Below the pieces are notes generated by a model. That model was not told the DNA's origin, did no database searches, and saw only the letters and a program-made list of their open reading frames with translations. A stretch of DNA of 58,039 bases from a virus: the IMG/VR virus record IMGVR_UViG_3300042923_000383, positions 1 through 58,039 of that record; one strand, 5' to 3'. The position numbers were made by a program, and so were the translations under genes. Position 1 is the first letter of the stretch, and every line of letters begins with the position of its first letter. Below, one piece after another: positions 13,286 through 44,536 of this stretch.

Positions 13286-13738
13286 ATGGCAATAAAAAAA
13301 GAGATAAAAGCATATGTTGAGTGTGAATTGCGTGATTATTTGCAGACAATACGCGATTTAGGCGAAGAACGGCAACAAATTATTTATAACTCACCTGCAT
13401 TTGATGATAGTGGTATTCGAGGTACAGATATTAGTAGGACGTGCGAGAAAAAGGCATTACAGTTAATTACTAGTAAGCGAATTAAACAAATAGAACGGAC
13501 AATAGCTGCTATACAATCGGTACTTAACGAACTAACAGAAGAGCAGTACAAGTTAGTAGTATTAAAATACTGGACTAAGCCACAAACCAGAACTGATGAA
13601 GGAATAGCCAAGGAATTAAACATTGATAAGAGAACCATGTATAGATGGACAAATGTGATTATATTGGCTGTCAGTATTGAATTAGGATTAGTTGATAATT
13701 TAGAATGTCAAAAACATGTCACTTTTAGGGGTGCGTAA
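13286..13738 (+). CDS. ArpU/RinA-like phage transcription regulator (sigma region 4 type)
   Basis: A 150-residue protein of the ArpU / DUF1492-like group. The N-terminal half is a long helical region; residues about 95-130 (EEQYKLVVLKYW..., DEGIAKELNIDKRTMYRW) form a sigma-70 region-4-like helix-turn-helix. Family members switch on phage late or packaging genes. Here the gene's last codons overlap a pair of ATGTCA repeats and are followed at once by the large structured RNA rather than by packaging genes. A second protein of this kind at 30464 precedes the large terminase. It may therefore drive the RNA (inference). Confidence 0.8.
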   Translation: MAIKKEIKAYVECELRDYLQTIRDLGEERQQIIYNSPAFDDSGIRGTDISRTCEKKALQLITSKRIKQIERTIAAIQSVLNELTEEQYKLVVLKYWTKPQTRTDEGIAKELNIDKRTMYRWTNVIILAVSIELGLVDNLECQKHVTFRGA

Positions 13739-13749
13739 TGTAATAAAAT
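13705..13749 (+). promoter_or_regulatory. possible promoter of the ornate RNA, with ATGTCA tandem repeat
   Basis: ATGTCA occurs twice, 11 bases apart (13705-13710 and 13716-13721), on one face of the helix, with AT-rich candidate -10 elements at 13736-13741 (TAATGT) and 13744-13749. It overlaps the end of the ArpU-like gene. A comparable tandem arrangement precedes the late operon at 30961. Assignment is by analogy with ArpU/RinA-type activation and is not proven. Confidence 0.35.
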
Positions 13750-14518
13750 GATAGTGTGAAGAGTTGTAGAAATACACTTTTAATACATTTGGACATGCCA
13801 AGGCGTACCGGCAGAGTAGCATCTCATTAAAAAGCGGTTGGGCATGACAACGTTTTGCGCGTGTGGGGCAAACGTAATAATAGATTGGTTAAGCAGACAA
13901 TAACGAGGGTTAGAGAAGTAATCTGAACGTAAGTAGCTAAAAGCATTTACGAAGTGCAAAATACGAAATATAGGATGAAAATCCTGCCTAACCAATCTAA
14001 AATACAATATATCATTTATTATCAGACTTGAAGGGTAAGAGGCAACCGAAGGTAACGAGCGCGTGGCTCACGATTACCGCCTAAATGATATGGTTGCCTG
14101 CCGTGTACCAATGGAGTGCTCAGAGCTGAAAGGGTGGGGAAACGGCATAAAGAGAGACTTAGTAATAAGGTGGCTCAATTGAGAGACTGATTTACGGGTG
14201 GCTCAGATGCTTGGCGGTGATGCTTAAACCGCCAACTAAATAACGTTCTTATACTTGATAGGCATAAGGATAATAGGGTGTGGCGTGAATAGGTAGACGC
14301 TAAATAATGGTCAAGGGATGGCTAACGCTCAAGCCTATGCTGGAAGACAGGTCGGGTAAATAGCCGGAAGATAGGGTTAGCCAATAAATTGCGTGAAAAT
14401 CATAAAACCATTTATCCTCTGTAAAGAGTGCCGACTAACGCGCAAATAATCTCATGTAAGGTGCAAATCCTTACCACTCTAACAACACAAAAATCCGAAG
14501 CTAATAACTTCGGCTTTT
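13741..14518 (+). ncRNA. large structured non-coding RNA, GOLLD/ROOL-like candidate
   Basis: No credible ORF runs through this 780-base stretch on either strand, but it is packed with long complementary pairs. Pairs include 13741-13753 with 14010-14021 (one bulge), 13794-13799 with 13841-13846, 13850-13858 with 13868-13875, 13882-13896 with 13984-13998 (14 pairs, one mismatch), 14040-14047 with 14092-14099, 14100-14104 with 14142-14146, 14211-14218 with 14228-14235, 14274-14280 with 14475-14481, 14319-14326 with 14376-14383, and 14389-14393 with 14441-14445. GTAA (GNRA) tetraloops close stems at 14158-14169 and 14417-14428. A terminator ends it. Size, phage setting, and a tRNA-like neighbour fit the ornate large RNAs GOLLD and ROOL. 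Family membership needs a covariance search. Confidence 0.7.
14495..14518 (+). terminator. intrinsic terminator of the structured RNA
   Basis: CCGAAG-CTAATAA-CTTCGG followed by CTTTT: a 6-bp GC-containing stem, 7-base loop and short U-run directly after the last helices of the RNA. It defines the RNA 3' end near 14518. Confidence 0.7.
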
Positions 14519-14526
14519 AAAAAATA

Positions 14527-14622
14527 TGCAAGTGGCTGCACTGTGGGAAGTGCCAGGAACAAATTCCGAATTTAAACTATTTGGTGGAAACAGGAAAATT
14601 GGTTCGATTCCAACCGCTTGCA
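14527..14622 (+). tRNA. tRNA-like element, anticodon not assignable
   Basis: Termini TGCAAGTG (14527-14534) and CGCTTGCA (14615-14622) form an 8-bp acceptor-like stem. A D-arm-like hairpin GCACT-GTGGGA-AGTGC lies at 14538-14553, and a T-arm TTGG-TTCGATT-CCAA at 14599-14613 has the classic TTCGATT loop. The 44 bases between are too long and irregular for a standard tRNA. The only clean 5-bp/7-base hairpin (loop TTAAACT) would give anticodon AAA with C at position 37, which is unlikely to decode. It may be a degenerate tRNA, a class II or Sec-like odd form, or a tRNA mimic belonging to the upstream RNA. Confidence 0.45.
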
Positions 14623-14686
14623 TCAAAACAAAAACATGTATGTTTGGATACATATAAATATAAATAAATTAAAGGATGTGCTTAAC

Positions 14687-17786: not shown

Positions 17787-17991
17787 TTAGGTGTTGGATG
17801 TATTCTTTGATTTTTAAATCCTCTTCGGGAGTTACATAGTAATTATGTTTGCTTCTGCCAGTAGATTTGCGACCTTGCCCTCTACCAGCACCACCTTGAC
17901 CAACAGGGTTGTTTCGGCAATCTAAGCCGTAGTTAACGAGTGAGCAGGTTTCGCAATCACCGTTGTTTTGAGTGCAATATTGCTTAATCAT
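17770..17991 (-). CDS. small protein with Cys-rich N-terminus and basic HTH-like C-terminus
   Basis: A 73-residue protein. The N-terminus has CTQNNGDCETC and one more Cys; a Gly/Arg-rich linker (GQGGAGRGQGRKSTGR) follows; the C-terminus HNYYVTPEEDLKIKEYIQHLR looks like the ribbon-plus-helix or helix-turn-helix end seen in small phage DNA-binding proteins. It overlaps the AP2 gene by eight bases, so the two are made together. A nucleic-acid-binding partner is plausible. Confidence 0.6.
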   Translation of the reverse strand: MIKQYCTQNNGDCETCSLVNYGLDCRNNPVGQGGAGRGQGRKSTGRSKHNYYVTPEEDLKIKEYIQHLRATAK

Positions 17992-18988
17992 TGCTTGTTT
18001 CCTCCGCGTATTTTTCTATTATTGGTTTAAAGTACTTTTCTTCGGCTTTTTCGCGCGCTTTTATTGCATCATCAACAAAATCATGAAGACCTAAACTTTT
18101 CATTTTACCTTGAAACGTTATATACGCATACCATTTATTAGATTTATTACTCCAAGATACGCCTTTATGTCCGCTTGTATTATTTATCCTAAGATTGGCA
18201 TTTAGACTACTTATTTTTGTATCTTCAATAAGATCGCTTGTTACATTTTTTATACATTGTTTTTTATGTTCGCATCCACAACTTGTTGTGTCTCCACGCA
18301 ATAAGTTTATTGCAGTTGTTATAAAAACATTGCCACAGCCACAAATACAAATCCATTCCAAATTACTGCCTTTTTTAGTGCCATTCATTGCTATAGCGAT
18401 AGATTTGCCAAAAGTTTGTCCTGTTATATTTCTATGTTTTGCACCTCTATAATTACCTACTGGCATCATTTCTACAACTCTTTTTTGAGCTTCGATATAT
18501 AATTCCGTTATTCTTTGCCTGATTGCTATAGCATCCTCTTGCTTGTTGTAAAACCCTAAATAAATATTAGTTTTATTAACACTTATTTCTGCTCTGTAGC
18601 CATCTCCTTTAATGTTCTTATATACCCCTGCACATTCTTTGCCTTTATTAGCTTTCCCCACCCTTGACATACAGCTGCATGAGGTACGCCTAAAAAATAC
18701 ATGGTTATAAATAACTTCTTCTTTTCCACAAACGCATCTACTTAGTACATGGCTATCGTCAATTATTTTAATAGCTTTTTGGTATCCAGAAATTTGCCCA
18801 ATTTTTACACTGTACCTAAGTTGTTTAGGGGGCAGACCGTTTTTCCTCCTTTGAACGATTTCTTGGGTTTTTTTGTATTTTTCTTTTTTTCTGCACACTT
18901 CGCATCGCGTAGCGCTTCTTCCGCCGATGAAAGTTTCGCTACAATCAATACAAGTTTTTTCTTTTTTTATTGTCCGTTCATCCGTCAT
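17984..18988 (-). CDS. protein with two AP2-like DNA-binding domains and zinc modules
   Basis: A 334-residue protein with repeated parts. Zinc modules: CIDCSETF...CEVCRK (N-terminus), CVCGKEEV...CSC (about residues 85-105), and ICICGCGNVF...TSCGC (about 210-240). Two AP2/ERF-like segments: GVYKNIKGDGYRAEISVN with YLGFYNKQEDA (about 120-165) and HKGVSWSNKSNKWYAYI with SLGLHDFVDDA (about 270-320). Phage AP2 domains usually accompany HNH homing endonucleases, but no HNH or GIY-YIG catalytic motif is visible here. It may be a DNA-binding regulator derived from a homing nuclease. It lies in a reverse-strand island of three genes with its own promoter. Confidence 0.78.
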   Translation of the reverse strand: MTDERTIKKEKTCIDCSETFIGGRSATRCEVCRKKEKYKKTQEIVQRRKNGLPPKQLRYSVKIGQISGYQKAIKIIDDSHVLSRCVCGKEEVIYNHVFFRRTSCSCMSRVGKANKGKECAGVYKNIKGDGYRAEISVNKTNIYLGFYNKQEDAIAIRQRITELYIEAQKRVVEMMPVGNYRGAKHRNITGQTFGKSIAIAMNGTKKGSNLEWICICGCGNVFITTAINLLRGDTTSCGCEHKKQCIKNVTSDLIEDTKISSLNANLRINNTSGHKGVSWSNKSNKWYAYITFQGKMKSLGLHDFVDDAIKAREKAEEKYFKPIIEKYAEETSND

Positions 18989-40916: not shown

Positions 40917-41272
40917 AAAAAATAAAACTTTTTGCTGAACTATCTGCGAACTTTGGATATACAAGAGATTACGTTAAATGGGAAATGTCTATCGTTGATG
41001 TTTATGGTTGTATTGACTATTTAGCCGACAATCCTCCTGCTGGTAAAATGCTAAAGCTATTCATGGAAGCACTTGGCAGTAGTGACGAAAAAAAATCTGT
41101 TAAGCAAACGAAAAAACCAACATTTAAAACCGAAGAAGAACGGCTGATGTGGGAAAAGAAACAACTTCGCAATTTAGTTTCTGACTTTGGTTGCGATTTA
41201 AGCAATCTTCCTAAGAAGCCAAAAAGAAAGATGGCTGACCTTTCTAAATTAGCTAAGAAAGGAGGTATATAA
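40859..41272 (+). CDS. T extension of frameshifted chaperone G-T
   Basis: Reading shifts to the -1 frame at the slippery site and continues for 137 residues (RGNADGTSRQ, later FAELSANFGYTRDYVKWEMS) to a TAA at 41270-41272. The internal ATG 40985 lacks a ribosome site, so this part is best seen as the C-terminal half of a G-T fusion of about 255 residues. The G and G-T ratio controls tail tube assembly on the tape measure. The stop overlaps the tape measure ATG. Confidence 0.82.
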   Translation, partial: RGNADGTSRQEEEPDHPEIKKIKLFAELSANFGYTRDYVKWEMSIVDVYGCIDYLADNPPAGKMLKLFMEALGSSDEKKSVKQTKKPTFKTEEERLMWEKKQLRNLVSDFGCDLSNLPKKPKRKMADLSKLAKKGGI

Positions 41273-43320
41273 TGGCTGATAATACAAACCTTGGCGAATA
41301 TCGTGTAGTCGTCTCGGCTGATTTTGCGGGTTTAATTTCATCAATAAATAGTATTACGAATTCAGTCCAACAATCTGCTGACAAAATAGCCGCAACTATG
41401 AATACTATGACCGAAACGTCTACAAAAGGCTATAGCGGTATTGTTGCTAGTATGAAATCAATGGTTGACCAATCAAACCAATTGGCTGCTGTAAGTAATG
41501 CTACGAGCAATACAGGCAAATCTGCTGACGAAGCAAAAGAAAAGTATAAGTCATTACAAGCACAAGTAACGTTAGCTGCAAAAGAAGCAGATAAAGCTTG
41601 GCAGGGTGGCACTGGATTTACAGAAGCTAAAGGTAATTTTAACGATGCATTAAATTCTCTTGTTTCTTTTAAAAAGGAGCTAGGAACTCTTTCTGTAGGT
41701 TCGGAAAAAGGAATTTATTCTGGTTTAGCACGTGGAGTAGATGAAGGTAGCGCATCATTTAAGGTATTGACCGATAGAATTAAAGAACTAAATGCAGAAC
41801 AACAACGGTTTAAAGAATCGACAACAATACCGAAAGTATCTAATGCGCCAACCACTGTTAGTGATGTTTCACCAGATCGTGAAAGAGCATTACAGGAAGA
41901 ACAAAAGTTACGCCGTGCTATAGATCAACAACAACTTAAATCATATAACGACTATATTTCCGCAGAACAAAAATTACAAAATTCTATGACAGAACGAGAA
42001 CGTTCGACAGAATTAGCCAACACAAAAGCGTATGAAGCAAATGCGGTTCAACGTGAGAAAGCTTTACAGCAAGAGCAAAAAATCCGCATGGCTATTGACA
42101 ATATGCAACAAAAAAGCTATGCGAAATATCTTACTGACGAGCAAAAACTACAGTCGTTAATGACAAACCGTGAACGTGTTACTGAACTGTCTCAATCTAA
42201 ACAATATGAAAGTTATGTTGCAACTAAAACCAAACAATTTCAACAGGAACAAGCTGAAATTCAGCGGCTTAATACATCATATGATAATCTTTATCGCCGT
42301 GTAGCTAGTTATGTTGATACTAATACAAAACTTTCAGCACAATCATTCACAAAAATGAAGTCCGATATGGATACGGTTACTGCTCAAATGGGAGCAAAAG
42401 GGGCAACACCTACTAAGGCAAGCCCGCTTTCTGGATTTTCTAATTATGGTGAATATGTTGCTGGTTTTGAAAACATTGATAAGTCAATTAAAAAAGCTAG
42501 TAATAGCGCACAATCATTTACTAATATTCTAGAAAAAATGAAAAGCCATGTATCGTGGATGGCAACCGCTGGACTTGTTGGTGCTGCTATTGCTATTCCA
42601 ATGGAATCAGTAAGAGTTATAGCCGATATTGAACAGCAAATGGCTGGTATGATACAAACTTTACCCCAACTACATAATAATCAATCTGCTGTAAATGATG
42701 TTTCTAGGCAATTTATTGGCATAGCACAGCAATATGGTATGGAAGTAGATAAGATTATTGAAGCTGGAAAATTATGGTCGAGAGGATACAAAGAAATCGG
42801 AGATGTAATGTCTCTTACTGGATTATCTGCAAAATTGGCGATCGCTGATATGATGGATGTAACACTAGCAAACAGAGCTGTAGAATCAATTATCAATTCA
42901 TACGGCAAGCAATCTGATGCAGTTAGTTTCGCTACTCATACCGTTGATTCATTTACCAACGTTGCACATAATGCACAATCAAGCGCAACCGATTTAGCCG
43001 AAGCATTAATGCGTAGTGGTGCTGCTGCTCATGTTGTCGGTGTATCTTTTGATACTACTACAGCTTTAGCAAGTACAATGATTAAGACTACAGGGCAAAG
43101 TGGTTCTATTGTTGGTAATGCTTTAAAATCTATTTTTTCTAGCATTCATTCTGATAAATCAATTCAAGATTTACAAAACCTTGGGATAGCTGTATATGAC
43201 TTTGATAAAAGCGGTACTGCTCATTTTAGGGATGTTTCGAGCGTTATCACTGATTTAATGCTAACCGTACATGAGACAAGCCAAGATATGCAACAAGATT
43301 TAGAACATATAGCTGGCGGT
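41272..43320 (+). CDS. tape measure protein, exon 1
   Basis: The first 683 residues. A Gln/Lys-rich coiled coil (about 60-370, with repeats around QQLKSYNDYISAEQKLQ and QQKSYAKYLTDEQKLQ) is followed by the TP901-type core (about 440-683), with the transmembrane-like SWMATAGLVGAAIAIPM. At 43320 the frame runs into the intron: family alignment predicts AGGKFQWGRAAAM, but the sequence continues AGGRPKLAA-stop. Spliced length would be 1722 residues. By the usual rule of about 0.15 nm per residue, the tail would be near 250 nm (estimate). Confidence 0.92.
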
Positions 43321-44536
43321 AGACCTAAACTTGCCGCCTAGTACAGCGATGTACTACAAGAACAGGGTTTTATAACGGTTAAAAGCCTGAGGAGGTCAAG
43401 ACCGTGGGAAATTATTATGCAAAATCAACCTTAAATATGATATAATATTGATATAGGCTAGACCGACGGGTCGAAAAGAGGTGCTCTCACCTCCTGCCTA
43501 TATTATTATTGAGAGTATCATTGGAGAGGATGATAAATATGGCACAAAAGATTTGTCCTACTTGTGGAGTTGTCTTTGAAAGAAAGTACAATAGACAAGT
43601 ATACTGTTCTATTGATTGCAAACCTAAAAAACGTTTAATTATTGGAGATAAAAAATGTTTAGTTTGCGGTAAAGAATTTGAAATAGCTTCTTCTAATCCA
43701 GATAAAAAGTTTTGTGGATTAGAATGCCGAAGAAATGGCAGACCATATAAAAAGACTTGCATTATATGTGAGAAAGTTTTTATGGCTAATAATTCTTTAG
43801 CGCAGTATTGTTCAAAGGATTGCAGTCGTTATAATCCAAAAGATATTAAGTTCTGTAAATATTGCGGTAATAAATTTTATAACCGGAAAGATAAGGATAC
43901 TGAATATTGCAGTTTGGATTGTAGGAATCACGATGCAACAGTAGAAACAGAAATAGGGCATTGCCAATATTGTGGTAAAGAAATGAAAATTTATCCCCAT
44001 CACAAAACACATCATAGAGGTAAATACTGTAGTGTAAAATGCCAAATTATTGGCGGTTCAAGCAATACTGATATTGAATTAATGGTTAAAGAATGGCTAG
44101 ACCTTCATAATGTTAAATATATTTTTCAATATAATTTTGGTAAATATTATCCAGACTTTTATATTGTTGATGCAAATATATTCCTTGAGGTACAAGGAGA
44201 TTATTGGCACGGTAATCCAGAAATATATAAACTAGAAGATTTAAATAGCCAACAGATTGACCACATGAACCGAGATAAAAGAAAGTTTGGATACTACAAA
44301 AAATACCGAATGAAGTTTTACGAATTATGGGGGAAAGATATAAAGAATGATTTAAATTCTTTAATGACTACAATTAAAGAACTTGCATAATAAACCCCGA
44401 GAGACTGACATAACCCCCTCTCACGTAGAGGAAGATACAGTCCGAACTATCGCATAACCTAATAATAAACGATAGAGCACGGCAGAAATGACCGTGCCTT
44501 TTCTATGCCCAAAAACATAGAAAAAGTAACAATATG
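43321..44536 (+). ncRNA. group I intron in the tape measure gene
   Basis: Boundaries follow from sequence. The 5' exon end GGCGGT pairs with GCCGCC at 43333-43338 (P1 with the U-G at the splice site). The 3' end is the G at 44536, and joining 43320 to 44537 restores AGGKFQWGRAAAM in frame. P2-like hairpin GTACAGCGATGTAC lies at 43342-43355. Core elements near the 3' end are GACTG (44403-44407) pairing with CAGTC (44438-44442) as P7, in the standard AAGATACAGTCC context, and a P8 CCTCT...AGAGG hairpin between. P9-type hairpins GCACGG...CCGTGC and CTATG...CATAG follow. Length is 1216 bases with an internal endonuclease ORF. Confidence 0.9.
43539..44390 (+). CDS. Vsr-like (EDxHD-type) homing endonuclease with zinc ribbons
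   Basis: A 283-residue intron-encoded protein; ATG 43539 follows GGAGAGGATGAT. Residues 1-180 carry a series of CxxC zinc-ribbon modules (CPTCGVVF, CLVCGKEF, CIICEKVF, CKYCGNKF, CQYCGKEM and their paired C..C). Residues about 185-275 form the nuclease: a strand ending YYPDFYIVD, then FLEVQGDYWHGNPE, and a helical C-terminus. Those D, E, D and H positions recall the EDxHD enzymes such as I-Bth0305I. It would cut intronless tape measure genes to spread the intron. Confidence 0.86.
   Translation: MAQKICPTCGVVFERKYNRQVYCSIDCKPKKRLIIGDKKCLVCGKEFEIASSNPDKKFCGLECRRNGRPYKKTCIICEKVFMANNSLAQYCSKDCSRYNPKDIKFCKYCGNKFYNRKDKDTEYCSLDCRNHDATVETEIGHCQYCGKEMKIYPHHKTHHRGKYCSVKCQIIGGSSNTDIELMVKEWLDLHNVKYIFQYNFGKYYPDFYIVDANIFLEVQGDYWHGNPEIYKLEDLNSQQIDHMNRDKRKFGYYKKYRMKFYELWGKDIKNDLNSLMTTIKELA

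Follow-up and report, generated by a model that had tools for sequence, protein, structure and literature searches.

A modular RNA locus with tRNA-like domains behind the RinA-like gene of a small group of Negativicutes phages

The gene-free region behind the RinA-like gene of a 58,039-nucleotide phage sequence (IMG/VR record IMGVR_UViG_3300042923_000383; the whole of this stretch is hereafter called the window) probably specifies a large, ornate and functional noncoding RNA, as judged by its conservation, covariation, G+C content and folding. The original prediction was a large ornate RNA of the GOLLD/ROOL type; the former part was supported by our analysis, whereas the GOLLD/ROOL identity was not. 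We read the locus as a new, lineage-restricted modular phage RNA that is nearest in kind to GOLLD and ROOL without being a member of either. Its domains are gained and lost as blocks with their order kept, and two of them have, by sequence and covariation, the outer shape of a tRNA with no sign of decoding.

The window sequence was also present in a Massilibacillus sp. metagenome genome (Negativicutes) and was identical over the compared region. The gene in front of the RNA locus, formerly described as sigma-like, instead encodes a RinA-like phage transcriptional activator (Table 1). Small phage genes lie downstream of the locus, followed further downstream by the terminase genes. The gene-free stretch after the regulator proved real, and the possibility that it encodes protein found no support, as no + strand ORF of at least 40 amino acids was present between the regulator stop (13738) and 14525. 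The G+C content was 38-46% inside the locus compared with ~30-33% in the flanks. Moreover, the predicted fold of 13741-14525 (-206.6 kcal/mol) was more stable than those of dinucleotide shuffles (-189.9 kcal/mol, sd 5.0; z -3.3), with 0 of 40 shuffles as low, and a longer fold of 13741-14640 (900 bases) gave a z of -1.95 against shuffles. The extent of ~780 bases given previously was correct as to the absence of genes but not as to the end point, because the conserved structured RNA continues to ~14625 and thus occupies 13754-14625, or ~870 gene-free bases. The -10-like box ahead of it is the putative transcript start.

Three relatives (L001, L002 and L003), which are IMG/VR contigs from two other metagenomes, were found via a search with the regulator protein. 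They carry structured sequence directly behind the same RinA-like gene, the anchor common to all four phages, and the length of the RNA was ~360 nt in L001, ~915 nt in L002 and ~575 nt in L003, compared with ~870 nt in the window. The final codons of the RinA-like gene (TTTTAGGGGTGC; 13718-13738) were identical at the DNA level in the four phages, and the preceding codons varied; this invariant gene end possibly overlaps a promoter or operator. Exact patterns for six module motifs and two protein scans of IMG/VR returned only the L001-L003 contigs among the matches listed, and 50,697 phage records gave no match when searched by blastn with the regions from the window, L002 and L003. In 380 host-class genomes, searches with the DNA of the window and L003 RNAs and with the RNA model R1 yielded a true copy in no genome other than the window's own. 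Two further candidates (L016 and L017) were discarded as relatives, since their matches were short and chance-like, and prophages L022-L029, which are more distant and have a related regulator, gave no match to the models of M8 and of M0+M1.

Alignment and all-against-all blastn of the four phages showed that the modules (M0 to M11) are wholly present or absent as blocks and that their order is never permuted. M0 occurs in all four phages; M1, M4 and M8 in the window, L001 and L002; M3 and M6 in the window and L002; M5 in the window and L003; M9 and M10 in L002 and L003; M11 in L001 and L003; and M2 and M7 in the window alone among the four. The gene next downstream also differs between the phages, L002 having an extra gene and L001 another. 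Searches of the rest of these phages, and of the host genome outside the window's own contig, gave no further module copies. The only candidate for long-range pairing between common modules was one of 4 pairs, from an M0 flank to the 3' end. A mobile repeat was rejected because the modules are single-copy in phage and host, and an attP within a host tRNA was rejected because there was no long identity to the host genome.

Table 1. Features of the RNA locus and its surroundings (window positions, unless a relative is named)
Feature	Position	Strand	Remarks
RinA-like late transcriptional activator gene	13286..13738	+	PHROG transcription regulator families; RinA-annotated phage homologues
Putative -10-like box TAAAAT	13744..13749	+	TAWAAT in all four phages, alignment on M0
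M0, 5' hairpin	13754..13786	+	In all four phages
M1, variable-tip stem CATGCCAA/TTGGGCATG followed by hairpin ACGTTTTGC/GCAAACGT	13787..13877	+	Compensatory pairs
M2, long stem-closed domain	13882..13999	+	14-pair helix; z -5.7
M3, domain closed by AGGCAACC/GGTTGCCT	14003..14147	+	Compensatory change in closing helix
M4, compact hairpin domain	14148..14204	+	88-96% identity among window, L001 and L002
M5, hairpin TTGGCGG..CCGCCAA	14204..14239	+	97% identity over 36 nt, window and L003
M6, tRNA-Leu-like, branched domain replacing anticodon region	14274..14481	+	Covariation; tRNA-Leu similarity of 5' half
M6 acceptor	14274-14280/14475-14481	+	7-bp stem
M6 D arm	14283-14300	+	
M6 T arm	14456-14474	+	
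M7, terminator-like hairpin, weak U tract	14495..14513	+	Window only
M8, 8-bp acceptor, D arm, T arm	14527..14625	+	Weak tRNA-Sec model match in window, L001 and L002
23S rRNA-like segment	L002 5870-5909; L003 5502-5530		Within RNA locus

Between the window and L002, identity was 73% in the regulator gene, 88% in M4, 93% in M6 and 96% in M8, indicating that the modules are conserved above the adjacent gene. In the substitution test, the structure was predicted from one sequence, and the substitutions of the other sequence were compared with the same substitutions randomly placed. With the window as the reference, M6 had 3 two-sided compensatory changes (0.21 expected, P 0.0005) and 1 broken pair (4.0 expected). 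M0+M1 had 1 broken pair (6.4-6.6 expected, P 0.0005 or less) with the same reference, a result that depends on which sequence supplies the structure and was weaker with the relatives as reference. Most of the other modules pointed in the same direction, none of them significantly alone. Covariation is limited by the number of sequences, two to four per module.

Several individual elements had been predicted as well. The M2 helix 13882-13896/13984-13998 (AGATTGGTTAAGCAG/CTGCCTAACCAATCT) was recovered exactly as described, with 14 pairs and one A.C mismatch, and the M3 helix 14040-14047/14092-14099 was confirmed, being perfectly paired in the window and changed in a compensatory manner to AGACAACC/GGTTGTCT in L002. 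As for the two GNRA tetraloops, a clear one (AGGAT-GAAA-ATCCT, 13971-13984) was present, but it lies within M2, a module found only in the window phage. M2 (13882-13999) has terminal inverted repeats and is flanked by short AATA repeats, resembling a small insertion, but a search of the host genome gave no further copy. The M7 hairpin, which had been taken for a terminator, has only a short U tract (CTTTTA) as its tail on the + strand; the terminator scan picks it up on the minus strand only, and the relatives lack it.

M6 agrees with tRNA-Leu in its 5' half, T arm and 7-bp acceptor and has no anticodon stem and loop. Specifically, U8, G9 and the GCG/CGC D stem are placed as in tRNA-Leu, and 21 of the first 25 bases were identical to a Negativicutes tRNA-Leu, a similarity reached by 1 of 300 shuffles; the tRNA similarity of the 3' half alone was not above shuffles. 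Between the D and T arms, the place of the anticodon stem-loop is taken by a branched structure of ~155 nt closed by GGGAT/ATCTC. The acceptor TAGGGTG/CACTCTA of the window is TGGGGTG/CGCCCCA in L002, the T stem GTAAGG/CCTTAC is GTGAGG/CCTCAC, and the consensus fold retains all 57 pairs, 3 of them compensatory. Neither a tmRNA model match nor a tag reading frame was found in M6, and a short frame in the window copy is interrupted by a stop in L002.

The sole standout of the relaxed Rfam scan was a tRNA-Sec match in M8 (14528-14621, 26.4 bits, E 0.012), with full-length, sub-threshold counterparts in L001 (26.5 bits) and L002 (22.9 bits). Matches of 30-44 bits to the tRNA-Sec model are abundant in host-class genomes and were ordinary tRNAs where checked, so M8, which scores below them, is tRNA-like in general and not specifically Sec-like. 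It has the acceptor, D arm (GCACT-GTGGGA-AGTGC) and T arm of a tRNA with their loop motifs (T loop TTCGATT), and the stems are retained. In the hairpin at the anticodon position, pairing is kept by compensation (A-U to G-C). The loop of this hairpin differs in both sequence and length between copies, with no conserved 7-nt anticodon loop, and thus does not look like a decoding loop. A tRNA-like element had indeed been predicted here, but as a separate neighbour; it lies within the conserved extent of the RNA.

The M9 module of the sister phages contains a fragment of 23S rRNA. In L002, the 20 bases AAGCGAAAGCGAGTCTTAAG match a 23S rRNA segment exactly, and 38 of 42 positions were identical over the extended match; in L003, the figure was 26 of 27. 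Similar matches were obtained from more than 20 host-class genomes, and the rRNA location was checked in fetched operons. Since one shuffle also reached the L002 score in a lenient gapped test, the rRNA assignment depends on the exact run of 20 bases together with its location in rRNA. M9 had also been considered as a group II intron, which was dropped because the segment is 23S rRNA. The window phage has neither M9 nor its rRNA segment, and none of the window's own modules exceeded shuffles against an rRNA operon.

All 4227 families of Rfam 15 were scanned at gathering scores and then at E up to 5 (window) or 10 (relatives). No family reached its gathering score in the RNA locus, and therefore the RNA is not a recognisable GOLLD, ROOL or OLE. 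Even at these relaxed E-values, neither the GOLLD nor the ROOL model matched the window or a relative, so membership in these families was not borne out. The alternative of a new class survives the scan and has gained an anatomy, namely interchangeable modules, two of them tRNA-like. In addition, no model match in the RNA locus was found for OLE, HEARO, raiA and the other large RNAs of Rfam, nor for the group I and group II intron covariance models in the window and relatives, and ARAGORN called no tRNA or tmRNA gene in any of these sequences.

Elsewhere in the window, the tape measure gene (41272-43341, resuming from 44534) is interrupted by ~1.2 kb (43342-44533) holding an ORF that is endonuclease-like (43509-44390) and an int-alpA RNA (43451-43516) that scored 52.2 bits. 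We take the GAAGATACAGTCC stretch near 44430 to recall group I introns; intron models gave no match in this interruption. A gene of the HNH endonuclease family (PHROG; 17984-18988, minus strand) is oriented opposite to most genes and is probably a homing endonuclease.

GOLLD, a large (often >800 nt) and elaborate RNA of phages and prophages, has a part that varies and often lies close to tRNA islands, and ROOL is a large multi-helix phage and prophage RNA with no known protein partner (PMC12286853). In staphylococcal phage K, two long noncoding RNAs that are abundant and lie close to tRNA genes were loosely likened to GOLLD/ROOL (PMC9241854). The window RNA resembles GOLLD in being large, elaborate and phage-borne with a variable part. 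However, it has no covariance-model match and no genuine tRNA gene nearby (ARAGORN), it swaps domains as blocks, and its tRNA-like modules belong to the RNA itself. With ROOL it shares size, many helices and a phage or prophage origin, but it has no match to that model either, and its length varies ~2.5-fold between close relatives. In plan, M6 resembles tmRNA: next to a tRNA-like acceptor and T arm, a different domain stands where the anticodon region would be. Unlike tmRNA, it has a D stem and does not encode the CCA, and it gave no tmRNA call and shows no conserved tag frame. The tRNA-like structures of plant RNA viruses also use the tRNA shape outside decoding. The comparison is one of shape, with no homology claimed, and the window differs in that it is a DNA phage whose modules lie inside a noncoding RNA and at its 3' end.

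The interpretation that we prefer, with roughly even confidence, is that a small group of Negativicutes phages makes one long, modular, structured noncoding RNA whose tRNA-like domains recruit host factors in a mimic or scaffold role. Transcription would most likely start at the -10-like box behind the RinA-like gene, the RNA would be made together with the late genes, and a single ~870-nt transcript would end in the tRNA-like 3' element. Its tRNA-like domains may recruit host tRNA-handling factors such as RNase P and end-trimming enzymes, which would serve maturation and stability, and perhaps EF-Tu or synthetases. Judging from the anatomy, the whole RNA might then engage translation or RNA-processing factors in late infection, either by mimicry or as a scaffold. 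A further reading, possible though rather doubtful, is that of a phage RNA class that evolves by domain shuffling, with some domains captured from host translation RNAs, and that acts as a composite mimic in late infection. The captured parts would be the tRNA-Leu body with its swapped anticodon region, the tRNA-like 3' end and, in the sister phages, the 23S rRNA hairpin.

A new ornate class that works like GOLLD/ROOL, as an abundant single fold forming RNA-only multimers with optional peripheral domains, would fit the constant module order and the likeness to GOLLD/ROOL (PMC12286853) in size, occurrence in phages, number of helices and variability of the 5' and linker parts. We nevertheless regard it as unlikely: there is no Rfam match, the common core is predicted to contain few pairs between modules, and a quaternary assembly of fixed form is hard to reconcile with a length of ~360 to 915 nt in close relatives and with the absence of M1, M4 and M8 from L003. 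The region could also be a leader that acts in cis on the late operon and controls read-through or stability of the transcript of downstream genes under the RinA-like regulator; it follows the activator gene directly, more + strand genes come after it, and a -10-like box lies at the RNA 5' end. Such a leader is rather unlikely, however, because the module content changes freely, the next downstream gene differs between phages, a leader would not need tRNA-like modules, and prophages with a related regulator manage without the RNA.

The modules fold independently and come and go singly, two of them are tRNA-like, and a terminator-like hairpin precedes M8 in the window phage, all of which would suit a remodelled tRNA island, in which individual small RNAs and degenerate tRNAs are lined up and processed into independently acting pieces. 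Such an array is distinctly improbable given the single -10-like box at the 5' end, the near absence of spacers between modules, their constant order in four phages and the absence of any ARAGORN tRNA. Junk or decaying DNA, a set of mobile repeats or an overlooked protein-coding stretch would account for the blockwise presence and absence and for the terminal inverted repeats of M2. Nevertheless, this explanation is very improbable and is largely refuted by the conservation above the neighbouring gene; the pair-preserving changes, the single-copy modules in phage and host and the lack of a + strand ORF likewise speak against it.

To our knowledge, only a few large structured RNAs have been described from phages, none with an established function. 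The window RNA is new to Rfam and brings whole-domain variation from ~360 to 915 nt and tRNA shapes without decoding parts. This variation makes the minimal (L001) and full versions directly comparable with regard to the importance of individual domains. Should the mimicry reading hold, the locus would show a phage building a large RNA from host parts.
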